A DNA stretch of 64,000 nucleotides from Agromyces sp. CF514 (GTDB lineage Bacteria > Actinomycetota > Actinomycetes > Actinomycetales > Microbacteriaceae). Where the stretch lies: the NCBI RefSeq assembly GCF_900113185.1, contig NZ_FOZD01000001.1, positions 1,054,001-1,118,000 on the forward strand, read 5' to 3'. Numbering within the stretch: the stretch's first letter is position 1; each line of letters starts with the position of its first letter. This document shows, piece after piece, positions 10,843 to 64,000 of this stretch. The notes under the pieces were generated by a model. The model was given only the letters and a program-made list of their open reading frames with translations. It made no database searches and had not been told where the DNA came from. The translations under genes were made by a program, and so were the position numbers.

Positions 10843-13800
10843 TCAGCAGCTGTGCGCCGCCAACGGCACCGCGACCGTCTGCGTCACCTCCTCGCCGTCC
10901 ACCGTCGCGGCGAGGTCGACGCTCGCCTCGCCGGCGGGGATGCTCGCCGCGCGGGTCGTGAACCCGTGGAACGCGTTCCTGCCCGGCGCGACGGCGGCGA
11001 ACGCCTTGGTGCCGTAGGGCGTGGCGACCGCGACGTCGATCGGCACCTCGTCCTCGTTCTTCACGGTGACCGTGGCCACGACCTTGCCCGCCACGCAGCG
11101 TGCGGAGGCCGTCGCCGTGACGTCGAGCGTCGGAGCAGCAGGCGGGAACGCGAGCGCCTGCCAGTCGGCGACCTCGGCGGCCGTGAGCGCCCGACCGAAG
11201 ATCGCGAGTCGGTCGACACCGCCGGACTGCCGCTCGCCGCCGTCGCGGTTGGCGCCGATGTGGAGCGTGCGCGACGTGCAGGCGTTGGCGGCCTGGTACC
11301 CGCCGATCGTGGCCGTGGCGGCCTGGGTGCCGTCGACGTAGACCGTGATGAGCCCGCTCGTCGAGAACGTCACGGCGAGCGAGACCCATCGCCCGGTCGG
11401 GACCACGGCCGTCGTGGTCGTGCCGACGCCCGCGGTGATGATGCGGACGTTGTTCGACGGCGTCAGGTCGATCAGGATGCCGTCGGAGTCGCTGTTCGCG
11501 GCCCGATGGTCGAACAGACGTCGGTGGCCCGACTGGCCGGGATCGATCTTGAACTCGGCCGCGAACGTCGACTGCTCGAGGTAGCCGAGCGCGAACGGGT
11601 CGACGCTCGTGATGTACCCGGCGCTGCTCATGCGCTGGGCGGCACCGGTCGGACCTTCGGCGAGCGTCGGCAGCGAGCCCTGGACCCGCCAGTCGCGGTC
11701 GAAGGGCGAGCTGTCGCCGTCGGCGTCGCCGCCGAGGTTCCACGCGACGAGCGTGCTGTCGGGGTCGGGCACCGGACACGGGGTCGGCGGCTTCACCGCG
11801 ACGATCGTCGTCGTCGAGACGGTCGCGCCGTCGCGCGTGAGCGTCGCCGTGATCGGAGACTGCCTGGCCGCGTTGCCGGCCCCGACGGTGACCGTCACCG
11901 TGCGCTCGGCCGACGATCCGGCCGCGATCGGGTCGAACTCGACCGTGGCGGGCGTCGCCGACCAGGCGGGGACCCCGGGCGCCGTGTCGGTCGGCACGCC
12001 GACCGAGACGCTCGCGCCCGTGACGGGCTCCGAGCCGATCGCGTCGACGCGGACCACGACCGGGATCTCGTCACCGCTCACGGCCGAGGCCGGTGCGCTG
12101 ATCGCGAGCGCGACCTCCGCCGTGATCGTGTAGACCTCGCCCGCCTCGCCGTCGAAGGTCGCGACGCCGTCGTCGAGCGTCGGCTCGATGATCGTGCCGT
12201 CGGCGTCCTTCAGCGTGAAGAACCCCGGCTTCAGGATCTGGTTCGCGATCCGCACCTCGCCGTCGCGGGCGGGGGCGATCGTGATCTCCCGGACGGACCC
12301 GTCCTCCCATGCTGCGCCGACCTCGACGTCGCCGCGGGCCTTCAGGCCAGAGTACGAGCCGTCGGGCCAGGCCGAGGGCAGTGCCGGAAGGACGTCGATG
12401 CGCCCGGCCTGGCTCTGCAGGAGCATCTCCGCGACGCCGGACGTGGCGCCGAAGTTGCCGTCGATCTGGAACGGCGGGTGGTCGTCCCAGAGGTTGTCGA
12501 GCGTCGAGCCCTTGAGCTGCTCGCCGAGGAGCTTGTGCGCACGATCGCCGTCGAGCAGGCGGGCCCAGAAGTTGATCTTCCACGCCTTGGACCAGCCCGT
12601 TCCGCCGTCGCCTCGGCCCTCGAGCGAGGTGCGCGCCGCGGCCGCGAGTTCCGGCGTCTCTGCGGGGGAGACGGCCGACCCAGGGAAGAGCGCGTACAGG
12701 TGCGAGACGTGCCGGTGCTGGTTTCCGGGGTTGTCGAGGGCCTGCTCGACCTTCCACTCCTTGAGCTGCCCCCACGAGCCGACCGCGAGGCCGGGGTAGA
12801 CGTGGTCGAGCTTGTCGCCGAGCTGCGCGAGGTAGTCGTCGTCGTCCTCGCCGACGAGTTCGGCCGCAGCAGCCGTCGAGGTGAGCACCTCGGTCACGAT
12901 CTGCTGCGAGATCGACGCGCCGACCGTGAAGTCGCCCTGCTCGGGCGAGTAGCTCGGCGTGACGACGTACGTGCCGTCGGCGTCCTCGACGAGGAAGTCG
13001 ATCCAGAACTCCGACACGGACTTCAGCATCGGGTACGCCCGATCGCGCAGGAACTCCTCGTCCTGGGTGAACAGGTAGTGCTGCCAGAAGTGCTGGGCGA
13101 GCCAGGCCGCGGCGTCGGGCTGCCAGAACGAGTACGCGTAGTTGTGCAGGCCCGTGAACCCGTACGGGTTCGTCTCGTTGCCGACGACCCAGCCGTCGGC
13201 GCCGTACATGTCGGTCGCGGTCACGGTGCCCGCGGGCACCATGGACTCGACGTAGTCGAAGAACGGGTCGGCGGTCTCGGTCAGGTTCGTCGTCTCGGCC
13301 GGCCAGTAGTTCATCTGGAGGTTGATGTTGACGTGGTAGTCGGCGTCCCACGGCGGGTTGTTGACCCGGTTCCAGACGCCCTGGAGGTTCGCGGGGAGCG
13401 AGCCGGCCCGTGACGACGAGATGAGCAGGTAGCGGCCGTACTGGAAGTACAGCGACTCGAGCGCTCGTGCGCTCTCGGCGTCGATCGTGCCGCGATAGGC
13501 CGCGAGCAGCTCGTCGGTGGGGATGTCGGGCAGTTCGGCGCCGCCGAGGTCGAGCTCCACGCGGTCGAAGAGCGATCGATAGTCGTCCTGGTGCCGTTCG
13601 AGGAGCTCGTCGTACGAGCGCGCCGCCGCCGCGTCCACCGCGGCGGTGACCGGCGCGTGCGGGTTCACGCCGCTGCGGTAGCCGTCGGCGTAGTCCATGG
13701 CGAAGTCGGTCGCGGCACCGAGCACGAGGGTGACCTCGTTCGCTCCGGTGACCGTGACCGTGCCGTTCCCGTTGTTCGCGACGGACCCGCCGTCGTTGTC

Positions 13801-14655
13801 GACGGCGAGCTGCGACTCGAAGCGCAGCCCGTTGTTCGAGAGTGTGCCCGAGGTGGTGAGCCGCCCCGCCTGCGCAGCGTGCGAGACGTTGCTGCGGCCG
13901 CCGGGGAGGGCCACCTGCGCCGTGAAGCCGATGCGACCCGGCTGGTCGGCGGTGAGGCGCACCACGACGACGTCGTCGGCGGCCGAGGCGAAGTACTCGC
14001 GCGTGTAGTCGACCCCGTCGGCCGTGAAGCTCGTGGTGACGAGCGATTCGCCGATGTCGAGCTGGCGTCGGTAGTCGGTCGCCGCGCCGATGCCGGTCAT
14101 CGTGAGGTTGAGGTCTCCGAACGTCTGGTACGAGCCGAAGTTCTTCTTCGGCTGGCCGAGCAGGTTCGCGATGGCCGTCGGGGCGACGCCGCCGGTGGGG
14201 GAGGCGGTGATCAGGTCGCGAGCCTGCTGGATCGTCTGCGGGCCTCGACCGTCGGACCAGTTGCCGAAGTCGTACCCGCCCTGGGCTCCGGGTCCGCCCG
14301 ACCACAGCGACTTCTCGTTGAACTGGATGCGCTCGTCGGAGACCCCTCCGTAGACGACGGCGCCGAGGGCGCCGTTGCCGATCGGCAGCGCCCGCTGCTC
14401 CCAGTTGCGCTGCTGGTCGCCCGTGGTCGAGAGCGGCTCGTCGAACCACACGACGTCGGGCGAGCCCGCGATGCGTTCGGGTGGTGCCTGCTCCGCGGCG
14501 GCTGCGGGCATCGCGGCCGCCGCGGAGATCGGGATCGCCAGCAGGGCCGCGAGCCCCGCGGCCGTCGCACTGCGCACCCAGCGCGAGGGATGCGATCTCG
14601 CGGTGCTGCCGCGGGGTCGGGCGTTCGCCCTGGTTTCGTGGTCTTCGGTCATCAT
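10843..14655 (-). CDS. Secreted GH95 alpha-L-fucosidase, multidomain
   Basis: A 1270-residue exported glycoside hydrolase family 95 protein. Residues 1-54 are a long Sec signal peptide with twin Arg upstream of the hydrophobic core. The GH95 N-domain and (alpha/alpha)6 barrel cover ~66-845, with HVNINLQMNYW (441-451), TPSYSPEQGD (566-575, E572) and QIDGNFGAT (730-738, D732). These match the known GH95 active-site segments (Asn pair, acid Glu, base Asp). An NEW3-like beta domain (~850-955), a LamG/concanavalin-like domain (~967-1165) and a ~95-residue C-terminal domain shared with the 16589-22144 protein follow. Activity would be release of terminal alpha-L-fucose (or L-galactose) from glycans. 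Two ATGs in tandem start it; a GGAGG at 14659-14663 is 3 nt from the first and 6 nt from the second (14652), so the second may be used. Confidence 0.88.
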   Translation of the reverse strand: MMTEDHETRANARPRGSTARSHPSRWVRSATAAGLAALLAIPISAAAAMPAAAAEQAPPERIAGSPDVVWFDEPLSTTGDQQRNWEQRALPIGNGALGAVVYGGVSDERIQFNEKSLWSGGPGAQGGYDFGNWSDGRGPQTIQQARDLITASPTGGVAPTAIANLLGQPKKNFGSYQTFGDLNLTMTGIGAATDYRRQLDIGESLVTTSFTADGVDYTREYFASAADDVVVVRLTADQPGRIGFTAQVALPGGRSNVSHAAQAGRLTTSGTLSNNGLRFESQLAVDNDGGSVANNGNGTVTVTGANEVTLVLGAATDFAMDYADGYRSGVNPHAPVTAAVDAAAARSYDELLERHQDDYRSLFDRVELDLGGAELPDIPTDELLAAYRGTIDAESARALESLYFQYGRYLLISSSRAGSLPANLQGVWNRVNNPPWDADYHVNINLQMNYWPAETTNLTETADPFFDYVESMVPAGTVTATDMYGADGWVVGNETNPYGFTGLHNYAYSFWQPDAAAWLAQHFWQHYLFTQDEEFLRDRAYPMLKSVSEFWIDFLVEDADGTYVVTPSYSPEQGDFTVGASISQQIVTEVLTSTAAAAELVGEDDDDYLAQLGDKLDHVYPGLAVGSWGQLKEWKVEQALDNPGNQHRHVSHLYALFPGSAVSPAETPELAAAARTSLEGRGDGGTGWSKAWKINFWARLLDGDRAHKLLGEQLKGSTLDNLWDDHPPFQIDGNFGATSGVAEMLLQSQAGRIDVLPALPSAWPDGSYSGLKARGDVEVGAAWEDGSVREITIAPARDGEVRIANQILKPGFFTLKDADGTIIEPTLDDGVATFDGEAGEVYTITAEVALAISAPASAVSGDEIPVVVRVDAIGSEPVTGASVSVGVPTDTAPGVPAWSATPATVEFDPIAAGSSAERTVTVTVGAGNAARQSPITATLTRDGATVSTTTIVAVKPPTPCPVPDPDSTLVAWNLGGDADGDSSPFDRDWRVQGSLPTLAEGPTGAAQRMSSAGYITSVDPFALGYLEQSTFAAEFKIDPGQSGHRRLFDHRAANSDSDGILIDLTPSNNVRIITAGVGTTTTAVVPTGRWVSLAVTFSTSGLITVYVDGTQAATATIGGYQAANACTSRTLHIGANRDGGERQSGGVDRLAIFGRALTAAEVADWQALAFPPAAPTLDVTATASARCVAGKVVATVTVKNEDEVPIDVAVATPYGTKAFAAVAPGRNAFHGFTTRAASIPAGEASVDLAATVDGEEVTQTVAVPLAAHSC

Positions 14656-16588: not shown

Positions 16589-22144
<5,556 letters not shown>

Positions 22145-22239: not shown

Positions 22240-22854
22240 ATGCGTAGGAGAGAAGTCGTCGCGCGGTGCGCGTTGGTCACGGCCGGTGTGTTCGTGCTCG
22301 CGGGCGTCGCCACCGCGGCATCCGCCGAGGAGCAGTACGGCGGCGACGACATCGACGTGTCGGTCGAGATCGCGCAGATCGACGAGCCCGGCGTGCTCGC
22401 CCTCACGGTCGCCGGCGGTGCCGTCGACCTGACCGAGTCGGGCTCGACCCCGACCGTCCGCCAGTTCACCGGCACGCTGCCGACGGTGACCGTGACCGAC
22501 ACCCGCACCGCCGCGGAGATCCCCGACGACGCGTTCTGGTACGTGCTCGGCACCGCGACCGACTTCCAGGGCACCGCGGGGCAGCCTGCGATCCCGGCCT
22601 CGCTGCTCGGCTGGGCGCCCGAGCTGATCGACGGCGGCGAATCGGGTCTCGTCGGTGCGGGCGACCCCGTCGACGGCAGCCTGGATGCCGGACCCGGCCT
22701 CGTCGACGTCGAGCTGCTCGCGATGGCGGCCTCGTCCGAGGAGATCGCCGAGGAGGGCCAGTGGACCGCGACGGCCGACCTGTCGCTGCGCACGCCTGCG
22801 ACGGTGGCTCCCGGGAGCTACACCTCGACCCTCACGCTCTCGCTCTTCGAGTGA
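22240..22854 (+). CDS. Small secreted WxL-like beta protein
   Basis: A 204-residue protein with a Sec signal (1-29, ending TAASA). The mature part is predicted all-beta with no catalytic motif. It is homologous over nearly its full mature length to the C-terminal domain of the metallophosphoesterase at the right end of the window. Shared positions include DTR (87-89), W100, DF (108-109), LGWxP (123-127), DAGxGL, ADLxL and a closing YTxxLTL. The layout recalls Firmicutes WxL domains, which bind peptidoglycan or DUF916 partners, but the second canonical WxL is missing. The ribosome site AAGGAG is at 22228-22233. A DUF916 protein is encoded 2 kb downstream. The role (surface anchoring or display) is inference. 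Confidence 0.72.
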   Translation: MRRREVVARCALVTAGVFVLAGVATAASAEEQYGGDDIDVSVEIAQIDEPGVLALTVAGGAVDLTESGSTPTVRQFTGTLPTVTVTDTRTAAEIPDDAFWYVLGTATDFQGTAGQPAIPASLLGWAPELIDGGESGLVGAGDPVDGSLDAGPGLVDVELLAMAASSEEIAEEGQWTATADLSLRTPATVAPGSYTSTLTLSLFE

Positions 22855-22859
22855 CCGAC

Positions 22860-23438
22860 ATGGGTTCGACGATGATCGCGACGACGGGTTCGCGCAAGCG
22901 GGCCGCTGCGCTGCTCGTCGCCGTCCTGGCGATGCTCTTCGCGCAGCTGTTCGTGCTCGGTGCCGGTCCGGCGAGCGCGCACGGCGGGCCCTTCGAGGGA
23001 CAGATCGCACAGGACGGCGAGGGCGGCGTGTACGTCTCGTTCGCCTACACCGAGGACGGCCACCCCGTCGAGGCGCTGCTCGCCGGGACGGTCGAGGGCC
23101 GGTCGGCGAGCGGCGAGGTGCTCGAGCCCGTTCCGCTGGTGTCCGCCAGCCAGGGTTCGGGCATCTGGGGGGTGCCGGCCGGCACCTTCCCCGCGGGCGA
23201 GTGGGAGGTCACCGTCAGGGTGACCGATCCCATCGCGTACGAGACGAGCGCCCCGATCGAGATCGTCATGGCCGACGTGGTGCCCGAGGACTACGTGGCG
23301 CCCGCGGCGGCGGCATCCGATTCCGCTCCCGCGGCGGAGTTCGGCTCGTGGTTCGCGGTCGGCCTCGGCGTCGCCGCGGTCGCGGCCGTGCTCGTGGTCG
23401 GCATGCTGCTGTTCCGGAGGTCTCGCGTCTCGGCGTGA
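22860..23438 (+). CDS. Exported protein with YtkA/FixH-like domain and C-terminal membrane anchor
   Basis: A 192-residue type I membrane protein. It has a signal peptide ending in PASA, a mature N-terminus AHGGPFEG, one Ig-like beta domain with a GEWEVTVRVTDP strand (~90-120) and an Ala-rich linker. One transmembrane helix (~162-184) ends in a short basic tail. The fold pattern resembles YtkA/FixH-like domains (and, loosely, CopC with its N-terminal His), but no metal site can be asserted. An in-frame GTG at 22851 overlaps the upstream stop as GTGA and is an alternative start. Close spacing to the WxL-like gene suggests they are co-transcribed and act together at the surface. It ends before a strong hairpin. 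Confidence 0.7.
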   Translation: MGSTMIATTGSRKRAAALLVAVLAMLFAQLFVLGAGPASAHGGPFEGQIAQDGEGGVYVSFAYTEDGHPVEALLAGTVEGRSASGEVLEPVPLVSASQGSGIWGVPAGTFPAGEWEVTVRVTDPIAYETSAPIEIVMADVVPEDYVAPAAAASDSAPAAEFGSWFAVGLGVAAVAAVLVVGMLLFRRSRVSA

Positions 23439-24935: not shown

Positions 24936-26012
24936 ATGAGGTCCTTCAGCAGGTTCGCGAAGCGCGTCGGACTCGGCGCCGTGGTCGCGGTGCTCGCATC
25001 CGTCGCAGGCCAGGCCGTGTTCGCACCGGCCGCATCCGCCGCCGACGACCCCGCGGTGAGTTGGTCGGTGACGCCGGCCGATGCCGGGGGCCCCGACGGC
25101 CGGTCGTGGGTCGAGCAGTCGCTCGACCCCGGGGAGACGCGGGTGGAGCACCTGGCGGTGCGGAACCTGGGTGCGTCGGAGGTCACGTTCGCCCTGTCGG
25201 CCGCCGACGGCTACCTGACCGACTCCGGTCGCTTCAACATGCTGCCCGCCTCGACCCCGTCGACCGGGGCCGGACTCTGGATCGAGTTGCCCGCGAGCGT
25301 CAGCGTGCCGGCCGGCGGCACCGTGGTGGTGCCCTTCACCGTCGCCGTCCCTGACCGCGCCGTGCCGGGGGACTACGCGGCCGGAGTCGCGGCGTCGATC
25401 ACGTCGATCGGCTCCGACGACGGCGCCACGATCGGCATCGAGAGCCGGGTCGGCTTCCGCGTGCTCACGCGCGTCGTGGGGGAGCTGGCGCCTGCGCTCG
25501 CCGTCGCCGACGCGACCTCCGACTACCGGGTCTCCTGGAATCCGTTCACCCCGGGGCGGATCGCCGTCGCCTTCGCCGTCGAGAACACCGGCAACACGCG
25601 ACTGTCGGTCGCCGGGCAGGTCGATGCGGCCGGTGCTACGGCGGCCTTCACGCCCTCGGGCGAGGCGATCGAGCTGCTGCCCGGCGATCGTCGAGAGGTC
25701 TCCGTCGTGCTCGACGACGTGTGGCCCCTGCTGTTCGTCCCGACGCGGATCGCCGCATCGGTCGAGGTCGCGGATGCCGCGGGCAGCTGGGAGCCTTCAC
25801 CGGGCGCCGCAGAGTCCGTGTCGCTCACGACCTGGGCGCCGCCGCTGCCGCAGCTCGCGGTGCTCCTCGCGCTCGGGCTCATCGTGGTCGCCCTGGTGGC
25901 GCGTCGGCGTCGAAGCCGGAGGGCGGTCGCCGACCTGGTCGAGCAGGCGAGGGAGGAGGGGCGCCGCGAGGCCTGGACGGCGCCCTCCGCGCCGGATCGG
26001 GTCGATGCCTGA
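24936..26012 (+). CDS. DUF916 (WxL-interacting-protein-like) surface protein
   Basis: A 358-residue type I membrane protein. A signal peptide (1-35, PAASA) is followed by a DUF916-like peptidoglycan-binding domain (~40-165) ending in the family's VPDxxxPGDYAAG pattern. A second Ig-like domain (~170-295, ENTGNTRLSV) resembles DUF3324. One transmembrane helix (~312-332) leads to a basic cytosolic tail RRRRSRR and an acidic/basic helical end. In Firmicutes such proteins hold WxL-domain proteins on the wall. A paralogue sits at 60983-62092 beside a WxL-like phosphoesterase, and here a WxL-like protein lies 2 kb upstream. The start is set by the GAGGAG before the ATG at 24936. Confidence 0.78.
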   Translation: MRSFSRFAKRVGLGAVVAVLASVAGQAVFAPAASAADDPAVSWSVTPADAGGPDGRSWVEQSLDPGETRVEHLAVRNLGASEVTFALSAADGYLTDSGRFNMLPASTPSTGAGLWIELPASVSVPAGGTVVVPFTVAVPDRAVPGDYAAGVAASITSIGSDDGATIGIESRVGFRVLTRVVGELAPALAVADATSDYRVSWNPFTPGRIAVAFAVENTGNTRLSVAGQVDAAGATAAFTPSGEAIELLPGDRREVSVVLDDVWPLLFVPTRIAASVEVADAAGSWEPSPGAAESVSLTTWAPPLPQLAVLLALGLIVVALVARRRRSRRAVADLVEQAREEGRREAWTAPSAPDRVDA

Positions 26013-60982: not shown

Positions 60983-62092
60983 CTAGGCCACCGGGGTCCG
61001 CTCGGCCTCGCGCTGCTGCAGGGCGTCGGCGACGGCCGCATCGATGCGCGCGGCCTCGCGGCGTTTGCGTCGCCGCCGCTGCACCACGACGAGGATCGCG
61101 GCCGTCGCCAGCACGAGCGCGAGGACGAGCAGTGTCCACGGCACGGCCCATGCGGTGGCGGTCGCCTGCACCGGAGGCAGCGGCGCGTTGGCGGTCGTGC
61201 TTCCCTCGGCCGGGAGCCGCGGCGAGAGGTCGACGGTCGCGGTCAGGAGTCCGGTCGGCACGACGCCGGGCACAGTCGCCGTGACGTCCCAGGTGTCGCC
61301 CGGCAGTAGTTCCGGCAGCGGATCGAGGCCGGCCGCGTCGACGCGGAGCATGCCGAACGGCCCGGCCACGGCGATCGCCTGGCCGGCAGCGAGCCGCGCG
61401 TTGCCCGTGTTGTGCACGGTGTACGTGACGGTGGCCGATCCCGCTGCGAACGGGTCGACGCTGCCGGAGTACTCGACGCGCAGATCCTCGATCGCGAGCG
61501 CGGGAGCGAGCTCGCCGCCGACGCGCAGCTGCACCCGGATGCCGAGGCGTCGGTCGACGCTCACGCCCGACGAGGCGTCGGGCACCGGAAGCGAGGTCAC
61601 GATGCCGCCCGAGTAATCGCCGGGAGCGATCCCATCCGGGACTTCGACGCGGAACGGGATCTCGGCGGACTCGCCGGCCTCGAGGTGCACCGACATCGCC
61701 GACAGCGTGATCCACGCGCCGACCGCGGTCGACGGGGTGTCCGAGGTCACGAGGTCGAGCACGCCCGTCTCGGTCGTGAAGCCGTCGGCGGCCGACAGGT
61801 CGAGGTCGACCGCGACGTCGTCGTTGTTGGTCACCACGATCGCGTCCTCGAGGGCGGTGCCGGGGTCGAGCACGTAGGCGTAGTTCGCCCGCTCGGCGCC
61901 CAGGGCGTTCGACGCGGTGCGCACGCCCCAGCCGACCGGGTCGTCGGCCGCTGCCGCCGGCGCTGCCGCGACACCGGCGAGTGCGGCGAGTGCCGCCATG
62001 ACGGCGAGAGCGGTGAGGGAGCGGTTCGCCATGCGGCGCGCGGGGCTCGGGCGGCCGGCTCGTGCTGCGGTCGACGGGTGGAGTTCGTACAT
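60983..62092 (-). CDS. DUF916 (WxL-interacting-protein-like) surface protein, second copy
   Basis: A 369-residue type I membrane protein, paralogous to the one at 24936-26012. A long signal peptide (1-49, AAAA before DDP) leads to a DUF916-like domain (~55-180) with PFRVEVPDGIAPGDYSGG. An Ig-like second domain (~185-305, HNTGNARLAAG) and one transmembrane helix (~315-337) follow, with a basic tail RRRRKRRE and a helical cytosolic end. It lies 66 bp behind the metallophosphoesterase gene on the same strand, with a hairpin between. The phosphoesterase ends in a WxL-like domain, so this is its probable wall anchor. GAGGA precedes the ATG at 62092; a second Met is 20 codons in. Confidence 0.8.
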   Translation of the reverse strand: MYELHPSTAARAGRPSPARRMANRSLTALAVMAALAALAGVAAAPAAAADDPVGWGVRTASNALGAERANYAYVLDPGTALEDAIVVTNNDDVAVDLDLSAADGFTTETGVLDLVTSDTPSTAVGAWITLSAMSVHLEAGESAEIPFRVEVPDGIAPGDYSGGIVTSLPVPDASSGVSVDRRLGIRVQLRVGGELAPALAIEDLRVEYSGSVDPFAAGSATVTYTVHNTGNARLAAGQAIAVAGPFGMLRVDAAGLDPLPELLPGDTWDVTATVPGVVPTGLLTATVDLSPRLPAEGSTTANAPLPPVQATATAWAVPWTLLVLALVLATAAILVVVQRRRRKRREAARIDAAVADALQQREAERTPVA

Positions 62093-62121
62093 GGGGTCCT
62101 CGTTGGATCTGGAGTGCGGGA

Positions 62122-62149
62122 GGCCGGGGCGGGGTCGCCCGCCCCGGCC
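62122..62149 (-). terminator. Hairpin between phosphoesterase and DUF916 genes
   Basis: A 12-bp perfect GC stem (62122-62133 with 62138-62149) and a 4-nt loop, 9 nt after the phosphoesterase stop. As an internal attenuator it would give more secreted enzyme than membrane anchor. Confidence 0.65.
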
Positions 62150-62158
62150 GGGGAACGA

Positions 62159-64000
62159 CTAGCTCAGCGCCGTGAGGGTGAGCTTCGCGGTGTAGGTGCC
62201 CTCGGCGATGTTCGACGGGACCTTCAGGAACAGGTCCGCGCCGAGCTTGGCCGCGCCGAACGCGTGACCGGCGACCGCCGAACCGAGCGTCGAGGCGACC
62301 GAGAGGCCTTCGCCCGCATCGAAGCCCGAGCCGACCGCGGCGCCGGCGGTCGCGCCGCCGCCGGCATCGGTCACCTTCGGCGTCCAGCCGAGGTACTTGC
62401 CCGAGAAGGTCTCGCCGCCTGCGGCGAAGTCGCCGGCCTGGGCAGAGATCGACCAGACGGGCGCACCCCGTCGGGTGTCGGAGACGCGGATCGGGTTGAT
62501 CGCACCGCTCGCCTCGAAGGCGTCGGCCTGCTGGACCGCCGTGCCGAGGTCGACGAGGCCGTTCGTGCCGTCGATGTTCCAGGCGAACTCGCCCGCCGCG
62601 GCCTGGGGCACCGTGACCTGCACCTGCTGCGCGACGCCGGAGTCGTCGGCCTCGCGCGTCAGGGTGACCTGGTCGACGATGCTGTTGACCGGCTTCGCGC
62701 TGCCGCTCGCCTGCGAGCGCAGGGTCTTCACGGTGATCGCGGCGTCGCTGATCTCGACGGCCGAGTAGTTGCGCACGTTCTCCTGGTTCGAGACCGAGAG
62801 CCACGGGAAGCCCGAGGCCTGCAGGCCGTAGTACTTCGAGCCCGAGGCGGAGTTCGCGGTCACGTAGAGCACGCCGCCCGGGCCGGCGACGACCTGGTCG
62901 GCACCCGCGGCCTCGTCGGCGTTCGCCTTCTCGCCGTTGCGGAGCAGGTAGCTGCGTGCGTAGCTGTGGTCGTGGCCCTGCAGCACGAGGTCGATGCCGA
63001 GGTCCGAGATCACGGTCGGGAGGTTCGCGCGGCGGTCGGCCACGTCGCTGTCCGTGGCGTGCGGGCCGGCCGAGTAGATCGAGTGGTGGAACGCCAGCAC
63101 CTTCCACTTCGCCTCGTCGCCGTGCTCGGCCACGATCCGCTGCATCCACGGGATGTGGGTGCTGTAGTCGCGGCTGTTCGAGTTCAGGTTCATGAACAGC
63201 ACGTCCTTGTAGACGAACCAGTAGTCGCCGCCCGAGGCCGTCGAGGTGCCCGCGCCCGCCGTGCGGTCGGTGTTCGGGGTGTTGAAGTGCTGCTCGTAGG
63301 CCTTCGAGCCGACGTCGTGGTTGCCGTTCGTCGCGACGAACGGCACCTCGCGAAGCTGGTCGGGGCCGAGGAACGCCTGGTACTGCGCCTCGTTCGACGC
63401 CGACTCGACCTGGTCGCCCGCCGAGAAGAGCAGTTCGGCGTCGGGGTAGGTCTGCGTGGCCACGTTGACCGTGTCGAGCCAGCCCGCCGCGTCGTTCGCG
63501 ACGTTGCCCGACGAGCCGATCTGCGGGTCGCCGAAGAAGAGCAGGTCGAAGGCGCCCTCGAAGTCCTGCGTGCGGAACGACTCGACGGCCGACCAGGCGC
63601 CCTCGGCGCCGACGCGGTACACGTAGGCGGTGTTCGAGGCGAGCCCCGAGATCGTGGCGAAGCGGTTGAACTCGCCGCTCGTGGTCGGGCCGCCGGTCGC
63701 CGCGACGCTCGTCGCGGAGGCGGGGAAGACGCCGCCCGTGTACGAGGATGCCGGTGCGAACTGCACGACCTGGGCGGTGTCGGCCGAGGAGTACCACGCG
63801 AGGTTGCGCTGGGTCTCGTCGGAGCCGACGCCCAGCACGAGGTCGGAGAGCGACGCGGCGCCCACCTGCTCGGCGACGGGGGCGAGCGACTTCAGGTCGA
63901 GGTAGATGTCGCTCGAGGTCGCGCGATCCTGGTACAGCGCGATGGCGACGGTGTTCGTGCCCGAGTGCAGCACCGCGTCGGGCACCGTGAAGGCGCTCGT
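62159..64000 (-). CDS. Secreted metallophosphoesterase with C-terminal WxL-like domain (5' end outside window)
   Basis: 613 residues are visible; the frame runs off the right edge, so the signal peptide and start are missing. An N-terminal jelly-roll tail is followed by a fibronectin-III-like purple-acid-phosphatase N-domain (~45-130). The calcineurin-like core carries all metal motifs: GDPQ, SAGDQVES, NGNHDVG, FHHSIYS and GHDHSYAR. A ~150-residue C-terminal beta domain carries VSDTRR, VWSIS, GDF, LGWTP and a final YTAKLTLTALS. That domain is homologous to the whole mature protein of 22240-22854. It would hydrolyse phosphate esters outside the cell. The DUF916 protein just downstream is its likely membrane or wall partner. 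Confidence 0.85.
   Translation of the reverse strand, partial: TSAFTVPDAVLHSGTNTVAIALYQDRATSSDIYLDLKSLAPVAEQVGAASLSDLVLGVGSDETQRNLAWYSSADTAQVVQFAPASSYTGGVFPASATSVAATGGPTTSGEFNRFATISGLASNTAYVYRVGAEGAWSAVESFRTQDFEGAFDLLFFGDPQIGSSGNVANDAAGWLDTVNVATQTYPDAELLFSAGDQVESASNEAQYQAFLGPDQLREVPFVATNGNHDVGSKAYEQHFNTPNTDRTAGAGTSTASGGDYWFVYKDVLFMNLNSNSRDYSTHIPWMQRIVAEHGDEAKWKVLAFHHSIYSAGPHATDSDVADRRANLPTVISDLGIDLVLQGHDHSYARSYLLRNGEKANADEAAGADQVVAGPGGVLYVTANSASGSKYYGLQASGFPWLSVSNQENVRNYSAVEISDAAITVKTLRSQASGSAKPVNSIVDQVTLTREADDSGVAQQVQVTVPQAAAGEFAWNIDGTNGLVDLGTAVQQADAFEASGAINPIRVSDTRRGAPVWSISAQAGDFAAGGETFSGKYLGWTPKVTDAGGGATAGAAVGSGFDAGEGLSVASTLGSAVAGHAFGAAKLGADLFLKVPSNIAEGTYTAKLTLTALS

Follow-up and report, generated by a model that had tools for sequence, protein, structure and literature searches.

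How is a secreted phosphoesterase of Agromyces sp. CF514 kept at the surface of the cell? The 64,000-nucleotide stretch analysed here (contig NZ_FOZD01000001.1, positions 1,054,001 to 1,118,000; hereafter the window) encodes, close to its end, a calcineurin-like phosphoesterase with an additional C-terminal tail, next to a membrane protein of the DUF916-containing WxLIP type. A small secreted protein resembling the tail is encoded at 22240-22854, upstream of a second WxLIP-type gene. We consider it probable that these genes specify a non-sortase surface display system, in which a diverged WxL tail and its WxLIP neighbour keep the enzyme at the cell surface. In many actinobacteria, surface retention of phosphatases, sugar-cutting enzymes and nutrient-binding proteins appears to depend on this distant relative of the WxL/DUF916 pair that attaches proteins to the wall of lactic acid bacteria; standard domain searches largely miss the actinobacterial system.

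Results

The phosphoesterase tail and a small secreted protein share a domain

The phosphoesterase gene continues past the window edge, and its whole open frame comprises 778 amino acids (L007:6159-8495; L007 is an overlapping copy of the window locus). The WxLIP gene 60983-62092 lies directly downstream on the same, minus strand. It had been predicted from the DNA that the C-terminal ∼150 residues of the phosphoesterase align with the 22240-22854 protein, and we find 32% identity over 142 residues (BLASTP comparison of five sequences, with E values in this tiny search space of 4e-14 and 1e-10 for the two directions of search); genes and frames are as originally given. A profile built from five domains of the same genome was searched against six-frame open reading frames of at least 60 amino acids from the window and six further loci. 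It recovered the proteins of its own seeds (one of them twice, from the window and from L007) and two non-seed proteins (L010, E 2e-49; L011, E 1e-46), with no further match at E ≤ 10 in this set. Pairwise and profile scores are far beyond chance, which rules out a fortuitous alignment of the two window proteins. The genome contains seven such WxL-like domains in all, each with a WxLIP homologue in the surrounding stretch.

Neither the tail nor the small protein has a significant match in Pfam, no NCBIfam family scored above cut-off among the seven proteins given, and PDB sequence searches returned no match for the 22240 protein or the WxLIP. A solved WxL structure was discarded as a guide, the PDB search with the profile yielding one irrelevant match (E 0.48). 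The DUF916-like membrane proteins claimed for both loci are present: 60983-62092 scores 32.4 bits with PF06030 (WxLIP_PGBD, cut-off 27.3 bits), and 24936-26012, at 16.6 bits under that cut-off, is recognized by an actinobacterial WxLIP profile constructed without it (E 8e-106).

The tail belongs to a diverged branch related to WxL

The profile check proposed in the original prediction succeeded for PF06030, which finds 60983-62092, whereas PF13731, the Pfam WxL model (cut-off 25 bits), misses the tail and the 22240 protein and does not list them even at E ≤ 10. Across the whole genome PF13731 gives three weak matches at E ≤ 10 (12.7, 10.7 and 9.2 bits), all within WxL-like domains. In 100 genomes of the family it gives 12 matches at E ≤ 0.1, of which only one exceeds the cut-off (29 bits; the match spans one stop, and a WxLIP lies about 3 kb away). 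The actinobacterial domain profile also matches nine of these 12 loci (not L022, L025 and L026).

We compared actinobacterial domains with a Firmicutes reference alignment of 16 WxL sequences, ten of them encoded on plasmids of Enterococcus mundtii, E. gilvus, Levilactobacillus, Lactiplantibacillus and Terribacillus, the other six being database relatives that carry a PF13731 label. The 55 domains closest to the window proteins reach an hhalign probability of 45.5% (P 2e-4; all hhalign P values refer to single comparisons). Seven intermediate domains, six of them chosen by PF13731, reach 96.6% (P 5e-10) and are in turn linked to the 55 close domains at 99.8%. Because the intermediate set was mostly selected by PF13731, we assembled a separate set of 34 domains from outside the PF13731 match list, and this set matches Firmicutes WxL with 93.5% probability (P 2e-7, 141 columns). 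None of 100 column shuffles reached the real score for the 55-domain or the intermediate set, and the best of 100 shuffles for the 34-domain set scored 16.2, compared with 51.7 for the real profile. Control profiles show nothing against Firmicutes WxL (reversed profiles 0.1–0.2%, a WxLIP profile 0.1%).

The D-x-R...W part of the first WxL motif is kept in 55/55 representative and 51/52 survey domains, a strict W-x-L in 6/55 and 17/52, respectively. The position of the second motif is mostly occupied by TLTLTA or TLTLSL, and a Trp is found within the last 25 residues in 0/55 and 1/52 domains. On the basis of the profile links to Firmicutes WxL, the kept D-x-R...W of the first motif and the lost Trp of the second, we call the domain a diverged branch homologous to WxL, rather than a canonical dual-motif WxL protein; the PF13731 cut-off and the second motif rule out a canonical Pfam WxL domain. 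The diverged WxL module of the original prediction is thus borne out by profile-profile comparison and intermediate sequences. At least three of 120 listed small relatives (P0018, P0072, P0090) bear the UniRef label “WxL domain-containing protein,” and automatic annotation has therefore already touched on the WxL link. The profile has about 160 positions, and all 245 domains inspected end within 5 residues of the protein C terminus, in agreement with WxL domains, which are C-terminal and about 160–190 residues long.

WxL-like domains and WxLIP genes are neighbours across Actinomycetota

We surveyed the 100 family genomes, 246 genomes sampled across the phylum and a separate named collection. 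In the family the domain is present in 28 genomes (68 copies) and a PF06030 gene in 23 (44 copies), with both in 22 (Fisher test on genomes, P 1e-15, with no correction for relatedness). A same-strand WxL-like domain is located within 5 kb of 42 of the 44 PF06030 genes, in 40 cases 186–1600 bp upstream. Six genomes seemed to have the tail without DUF916 (G019, G021, G056, G071, G076, G080), which reflects a limit of the Pfam model, as a WxLIP homologue is nearby in all six. When the actinobacterial WxLIP profile is added, all 28 domain-bearing genomes have a WxLIP, found in the surrounding stretch for 56 of the 68 domain copies. The phylum sample has the domain in 20 genomes and a WxLIP in 52; both occur in 19, and in the 20th domain-bearing genome a short segment next to the domain has weak similarity to WxLIP (E 6e-4). 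Tails that commonly occur in genomes without DUF916 genes, which would have spoken against a partnership, are thus found in neither sample. The further loci from the phylum sample all have a WxLIP match in their stretch (18/18, one weak and short).

A pattern scan of the named collection starting from the phosphoesterase tail located 23 loci, in genera including Agromyces, Microbacterium, Actinoplanes, Actinokineospora, Cellulomonas, Luteimicrobium, Herbiconiux, Schumannella, Leucobacter and Propionicimonas, and a WxLIP gene is next to the tail gene in 23/23. WxL-like domains and their own WxLIPs also diverge in parallel among loci of the same genome (rho 0.40; 17 of 2000 shuffles within genomes gave a value at least as high). 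The gap filter left L090, L091, L092 and L117 without a pair in this comparison; L007, being a duplicate of the window locus, was not counted, and L012 entered twice, its one WxL being paired with each of its two WxLIPs.

Actinobacterial WxLIPs carry a conserved PGBD and a basic tail

A profile of 22 actinobacterial WxLIPs aligns with six Firmicutes WxLIPs over the PGBD (95.7%, 164 columns). Pfam lists no HBD/DUF3324 for either of the two window WxLIPs, and the second domain of the 22 proteins matches the Firmicutes HBD with 0.3% probability in the profile comparison. A transmembrane helix, defined by hydropathy above threshold, is followed by 4–12 Arg/Lys residues in 22/22 WxLIPs. According to the positive-inside rule a basic tail marks the cytoplasmic side, and because the tail is strongly basic, the helix would fit an anchor in the membrane of the producer itself. 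This arrangement bears on the model of Hassan et al. (PMC10599100), in which the WxLIP helix is proposed to enter the host membrane and a PGBD hairpin to complete the WxL sandwich. Outside the phylum, a Deinococcus plasmid (L196) encodes a WxLIP-like match (27% identity, E 5e-4) amid a run of hypothetical genes, which hints that the WxL/WxLIP pair may extend to Deinococcota.

The tail is exchanged for sortase-type ends in related phosphoesterases

The phosphoesterase matches PF16656 and PF00149 (Metallophos, 43.7 bits), and its metal-ligand motifs GDPQ, GDQV, GNHD and GHDH are found in 23/23 aligned rows (relatives L168, L177 and L178 left out, L116 and L167 being one record). Upstream of it, beyond the window, lies a gene for a HupE/UreJ_2 permease (PF13795, 134 bits). 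The mature permease starts with His-Gly, and a His directly follows the predicted signal peptide in 24/24 rows, 23 of them distinct, with the cleavage site judged by eye. A HupE homologue adjoins seven of eight tail-bearing phosphoesterases in the family survey, the eighth being located at a contig end, and 17/18 of those in the named set. HupE/Ang-2 permease, phosphoesterase-WxL and WxLIP form a conserved module.

The 100 family genomes contain 17 strong matches to the phosphoesterase head (11 weaker ones, E 1e-33 to 2.5e-11, were left out). Eight of these heads carry a WxL tail, seven of them with a WxLIP alongside. The stretches surrounding the nine tail-less enzymes contain neither WxL nor WxLIP (0/9), and HupE is still found beside three. 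Five of the nine end instead in an LPxTG-like motif (LPSTG, LPYTG, LASTG twice, LAATG), a hydrophobic helix and a basic end. The WxL tail is exchanged for sortase-type ends between close relatives, and this apparent anchor swap is our best evidence that the tail would serve as an anchor. Where LPxTG enzymes are attached covalently, a putative protein- or wall-binding domain would here do the anchoring.

The tail occurs on heads of many kinds

The fusions of the tail to other enzymes beside DUF916 genes that the original prediction anticipated are found, with many types of head. The domain terminates PAP2, phytase-like, GH10, alpha/beta hydrolase, CBM6, ricin-B and HtaA proteins, as well as GH92, GH97, X-Pro dipeptidyl-peptidase and esterase heads and an alkaline phosphatase (Pfam match on one of three similar proteins). 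Two PstS-like binding proteins have a WxL tail (L103, L107), so that proteins binding haem or phosphate are found among the heads along with phosphatases, glycosidases and peptidases. A pst-like locus, present eight times in seven genomes (L012, L099, L101, L103, L119–L122), combines genes for a PstS-like protein, a WxL protein and a PstB-like ATPase with one or two WxLIP genes and a gene for a sortase-family protein. The phosphatases and PstS-like proteins of this repertoire point to phosphate scavenging.

A second C-terminal domain accompanies stand-alone WxL genes

Large enzymes encoded next to stand-alone WxL genes end in a different domain of ∼95 residues (R-C-V-A-G-K ... C, hereafter CVAGK), which has no Pfam match above cut-off in the six copies scanned and occurs at 50 places in 12 of the 100 family genomes. 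It is located within 5 kb of 13 of 14 stand-alone WxL genes (5.03 kb for the 14th) and of 2/54 other WxL copies, in a comparison that is partly circular, as the CVAGK profile was partly seeded from small-WxL loci (own genome, G045, G023) and the small class (n = 14) was assigned by one of us from C-terminal sequences. Cases outside the seeds are G077, G079 and plasmids of Clavibacter and Cellulosimicrobium. The plasmids of Clavibacter phaseoli and Cellulosimicrobium protaetiae encode a GH43 or LamG enzyme with CVAGK, a small WxL protein and DUF916, and the four plasmid records with CVAGK (two from C. phaseoli) are all among the DUF916 matches. Of five CVAGK proteins scanned, three turned out to be GH127, GH43 or GH30+GH43 enzymes, a finding that points to plant polysaccharides. 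CVAGK may be the dock that matches the stand-alone WxL protein, a candidate for such a role.

We tentatively extend these observations to a joint model, whose chances we put somewhat short of even: a modular, cellulosome-like WxL/WxLIP platform in actinobacteria would have two interchangeable couplings, direct WxL fusion and CVAGK as a new dockerin-like module docking non-covalently on a stand-alone WxL protein, with the WxLIP helix in the producer's own membrane and not in that of a host.

Features in the window (strand relative to the contig)
Feature	Coordinates	Strand	Evidence
Calcineurin-like phosphoesterase, secreted, 3' part, with C-terminal WxL-like domain	62159..64000	-	PAP_N and Metallophos matches; metal-ligand motifs
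WxL-like tail domain of phosphoesterase, 162 aa	62162..62647	-	BLASTP, profile search, profile-profile comparison
WxLIP-type membrane protein with DUF916/PGBD and second Ig-like domain, followed by transmembrane helix and basic tail	60983..62092	-	PF06030, 32.4 bits
Stand-alone (small) WxL-like protein, signal peptide	22240..22854	+	Homology to phosphoesterase tail
Second WxLIP-type protein	24936..26012	+	Actinobacterial WxLIP profile; PF06030 below cut-off
Large secreted enzyme beside small WxL, CVAGK-domain end	16589..22144	+	ThuA, GSDH, PKD, CBM6, GH43_C2 domains
CVAGK domain, candidate docking module for small WxL	21848..22141	+	Profile of CVAGK domain
CVAGK domain ending second large protein (10843-14655)	10846..11136	-	Profile of CVAGK domain

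Two genes separate the small WxL gene from its WxLIP, one for a small membrane protein and one, on the opposite strand, of MFS type. The former (22863-23438) encodes a membrane-anchored protein whose predicted mature end starts with His-Gly-Gly and which has no Pfam family at E ≤ 0.01; it is a possible N-terminal-His metal binder. It was rejected as a component common to WxL loci, having no relative in the loci scanned.

Discussion

A two-part anchor and its alternatives

We propose that the secreted phosphoesterase bears a diverged WxL domain at its extreme C terminus, and that its WxLIP neighbour would expose the DUF916/PGBD and a second Ig-like domain on the extracytoplasmic side of a transmembrane helix that is followed by a basic stretch in the cytoplasm. 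The most likely docking sites of the WxL domain are the PGBD and the wall. The enzyme would thereby stay at the cell surface next to the HupE/Ang-2 metal permease, whose gene lies just upstream, and would not diffuse away. The same two-part anchor would be reused for alkaline phosphatase, PAP2, PstS-like binding proteins, glycosidases, peptidases and HtaA. Docking of the tail on its DUF916 partner is our best inference, and the location and substrate of the enzyme and the role of the permease are likewise assigned here by inference.

Several observations weigh against this proposal. Just outside the window (L007:8495-8590) a frame break, either a sequencing error or a real lesion, lies in the signal-peptide region of the phosphoesterase, and because of it this copy may not be made as drawn; close relatives are intact across the same stretch (P0122, and L162 from Agromyces allii). 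Four of the nine tail-less phosphoesterases have no sortase-type end (three end in repeats, one in a Pro/Thr-rich segment). Two of the 44 family WxLIPs (G041, and one in G006) have no WxL-like domain nearby, and paired divergence can also stem from duplication of the pair as a unit. Other such points are those on which the following alternatives draw.

The tail could bind the wall directly and be the anchor itself, with the WxLIP as chaperone or stabilizer and not as receptor. Firmicutes WxL domains are reported to bind peptidoglycan (PMC10599100, PMC4449606), and no WxLIP lies in the stretch around 12 of the 68 family domains. All of these, however, occur in four genomes with WxLIPs elsewhere (G060, G045, G023, G037), and the near-constant WxLIP neighbourhood and the paired divergence argue against this alternative, which we regard as rather unlikely. 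Adjacency might also reflect co-inheritance only, tail and WxLIP having separate surface functions and making no contact. Their interaction has so far been deduced from genes, and 33 of the 52 WxLIP genomes of the phylum sample show no WxL-like domain at E ≤ 1e-5, so that WxLIP may have other or unrecognized partners; yet the pairing persists over many unrelated heads and the named genera and is the same as in Firmicutes, which makes its origin in co-inheritance alone very improbable. Least probable, by a small step, is convergence, through which a generic Ig-like domain at the C terminus would have come to resemble WxL. The lost second motif, window proteins below the PF13731 cut-off and the low probability of the closest 55 domains on their own would speak for it; the strong links through the intermediates and from the 34-domain set to Firmicutes WxL, together with silent controls, contradict it.

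Relation to known systems

The two-part display system that we favour resembles the csc clusters of Bacilli, which encode WxL and WxLIP (DUF916-DUF3324) proteins, in its C-terminal WxL domain on small as well as large secreted proteins, in the adjoining WxLIP gene with PGBD and transmembrane helix, and in the D-x-R...W part of the first motif (D-x-R...W-x-L). On L. brevis and L. plantarum plasmids DUF916-DUF3324 likewise directly follows WxL. The actinobacterial branch differs in lacking the second Trp motif and a recognizable HBD/DUF3324 in its WxLIP; in addition, many of its heads are recognizable enzymes or nutrient-binding proteins, and at several loci the tail-fused protein is the sole WxL protein beside the WxLIP. 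Its bearers are actinobacteria, many of them soil organisms. In a 2022 survey (PMC9772566), Firmicutes account for over 91% of the 938 WxL sequences known. Because L. plantarum WxL clusters were proposed to form surface complexes for sugar use (PMC1534035), WxL complexes that serve nutrition are not a new idea; our additions are the actinobacterial branch, the fusions of its domain to enzymes and the anchor swap.

Metallophosphatases and DUF916 proteins are among the commonest neighbours of Ang-2-HupE/UreJ-2 “anglerase” permeases in Actinomycetota, according to the accessible part of a recent account (PMC12537917). The gene upstream of our phosphoesterase agrees with these permeases in its PF13795 match and its predicted first mature residue, His. 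The accessible part of that account does not mention a WxL-like tail on the phosphatase, and such a tail would connect the two kinds of neighbour. It is also the only publication tying DUF916/WxL to Actinomycetota among the matches listed, in a search whose scope excluded bioRxiv and most subscription papers.

In the cellulosome, a C-terminal module of the enzymes, the dockerin, is received by the cohesin of a surface protein. The WxL/WxLIP arrangement may be likened to this in outline. We noticed no scaffoldin-like gene in the loci examined, where no search was aimed at scaffoldins.

Implications

WxL/DUF916 has so far been treated as a system of gut commensals for adhesion and virulence. If our proposal is true, it would be a more general display device for nutrient scavenging in several orders of Actinomycetota, with a core pair open to study in harmless strains, and this would explain why DUF916 and metallophosphatase genes are found beside Ang-2 copper-binding permeases. 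For actinobacteria, the tail together with its WxLIP could be developed into a display tag that needs no sortase.

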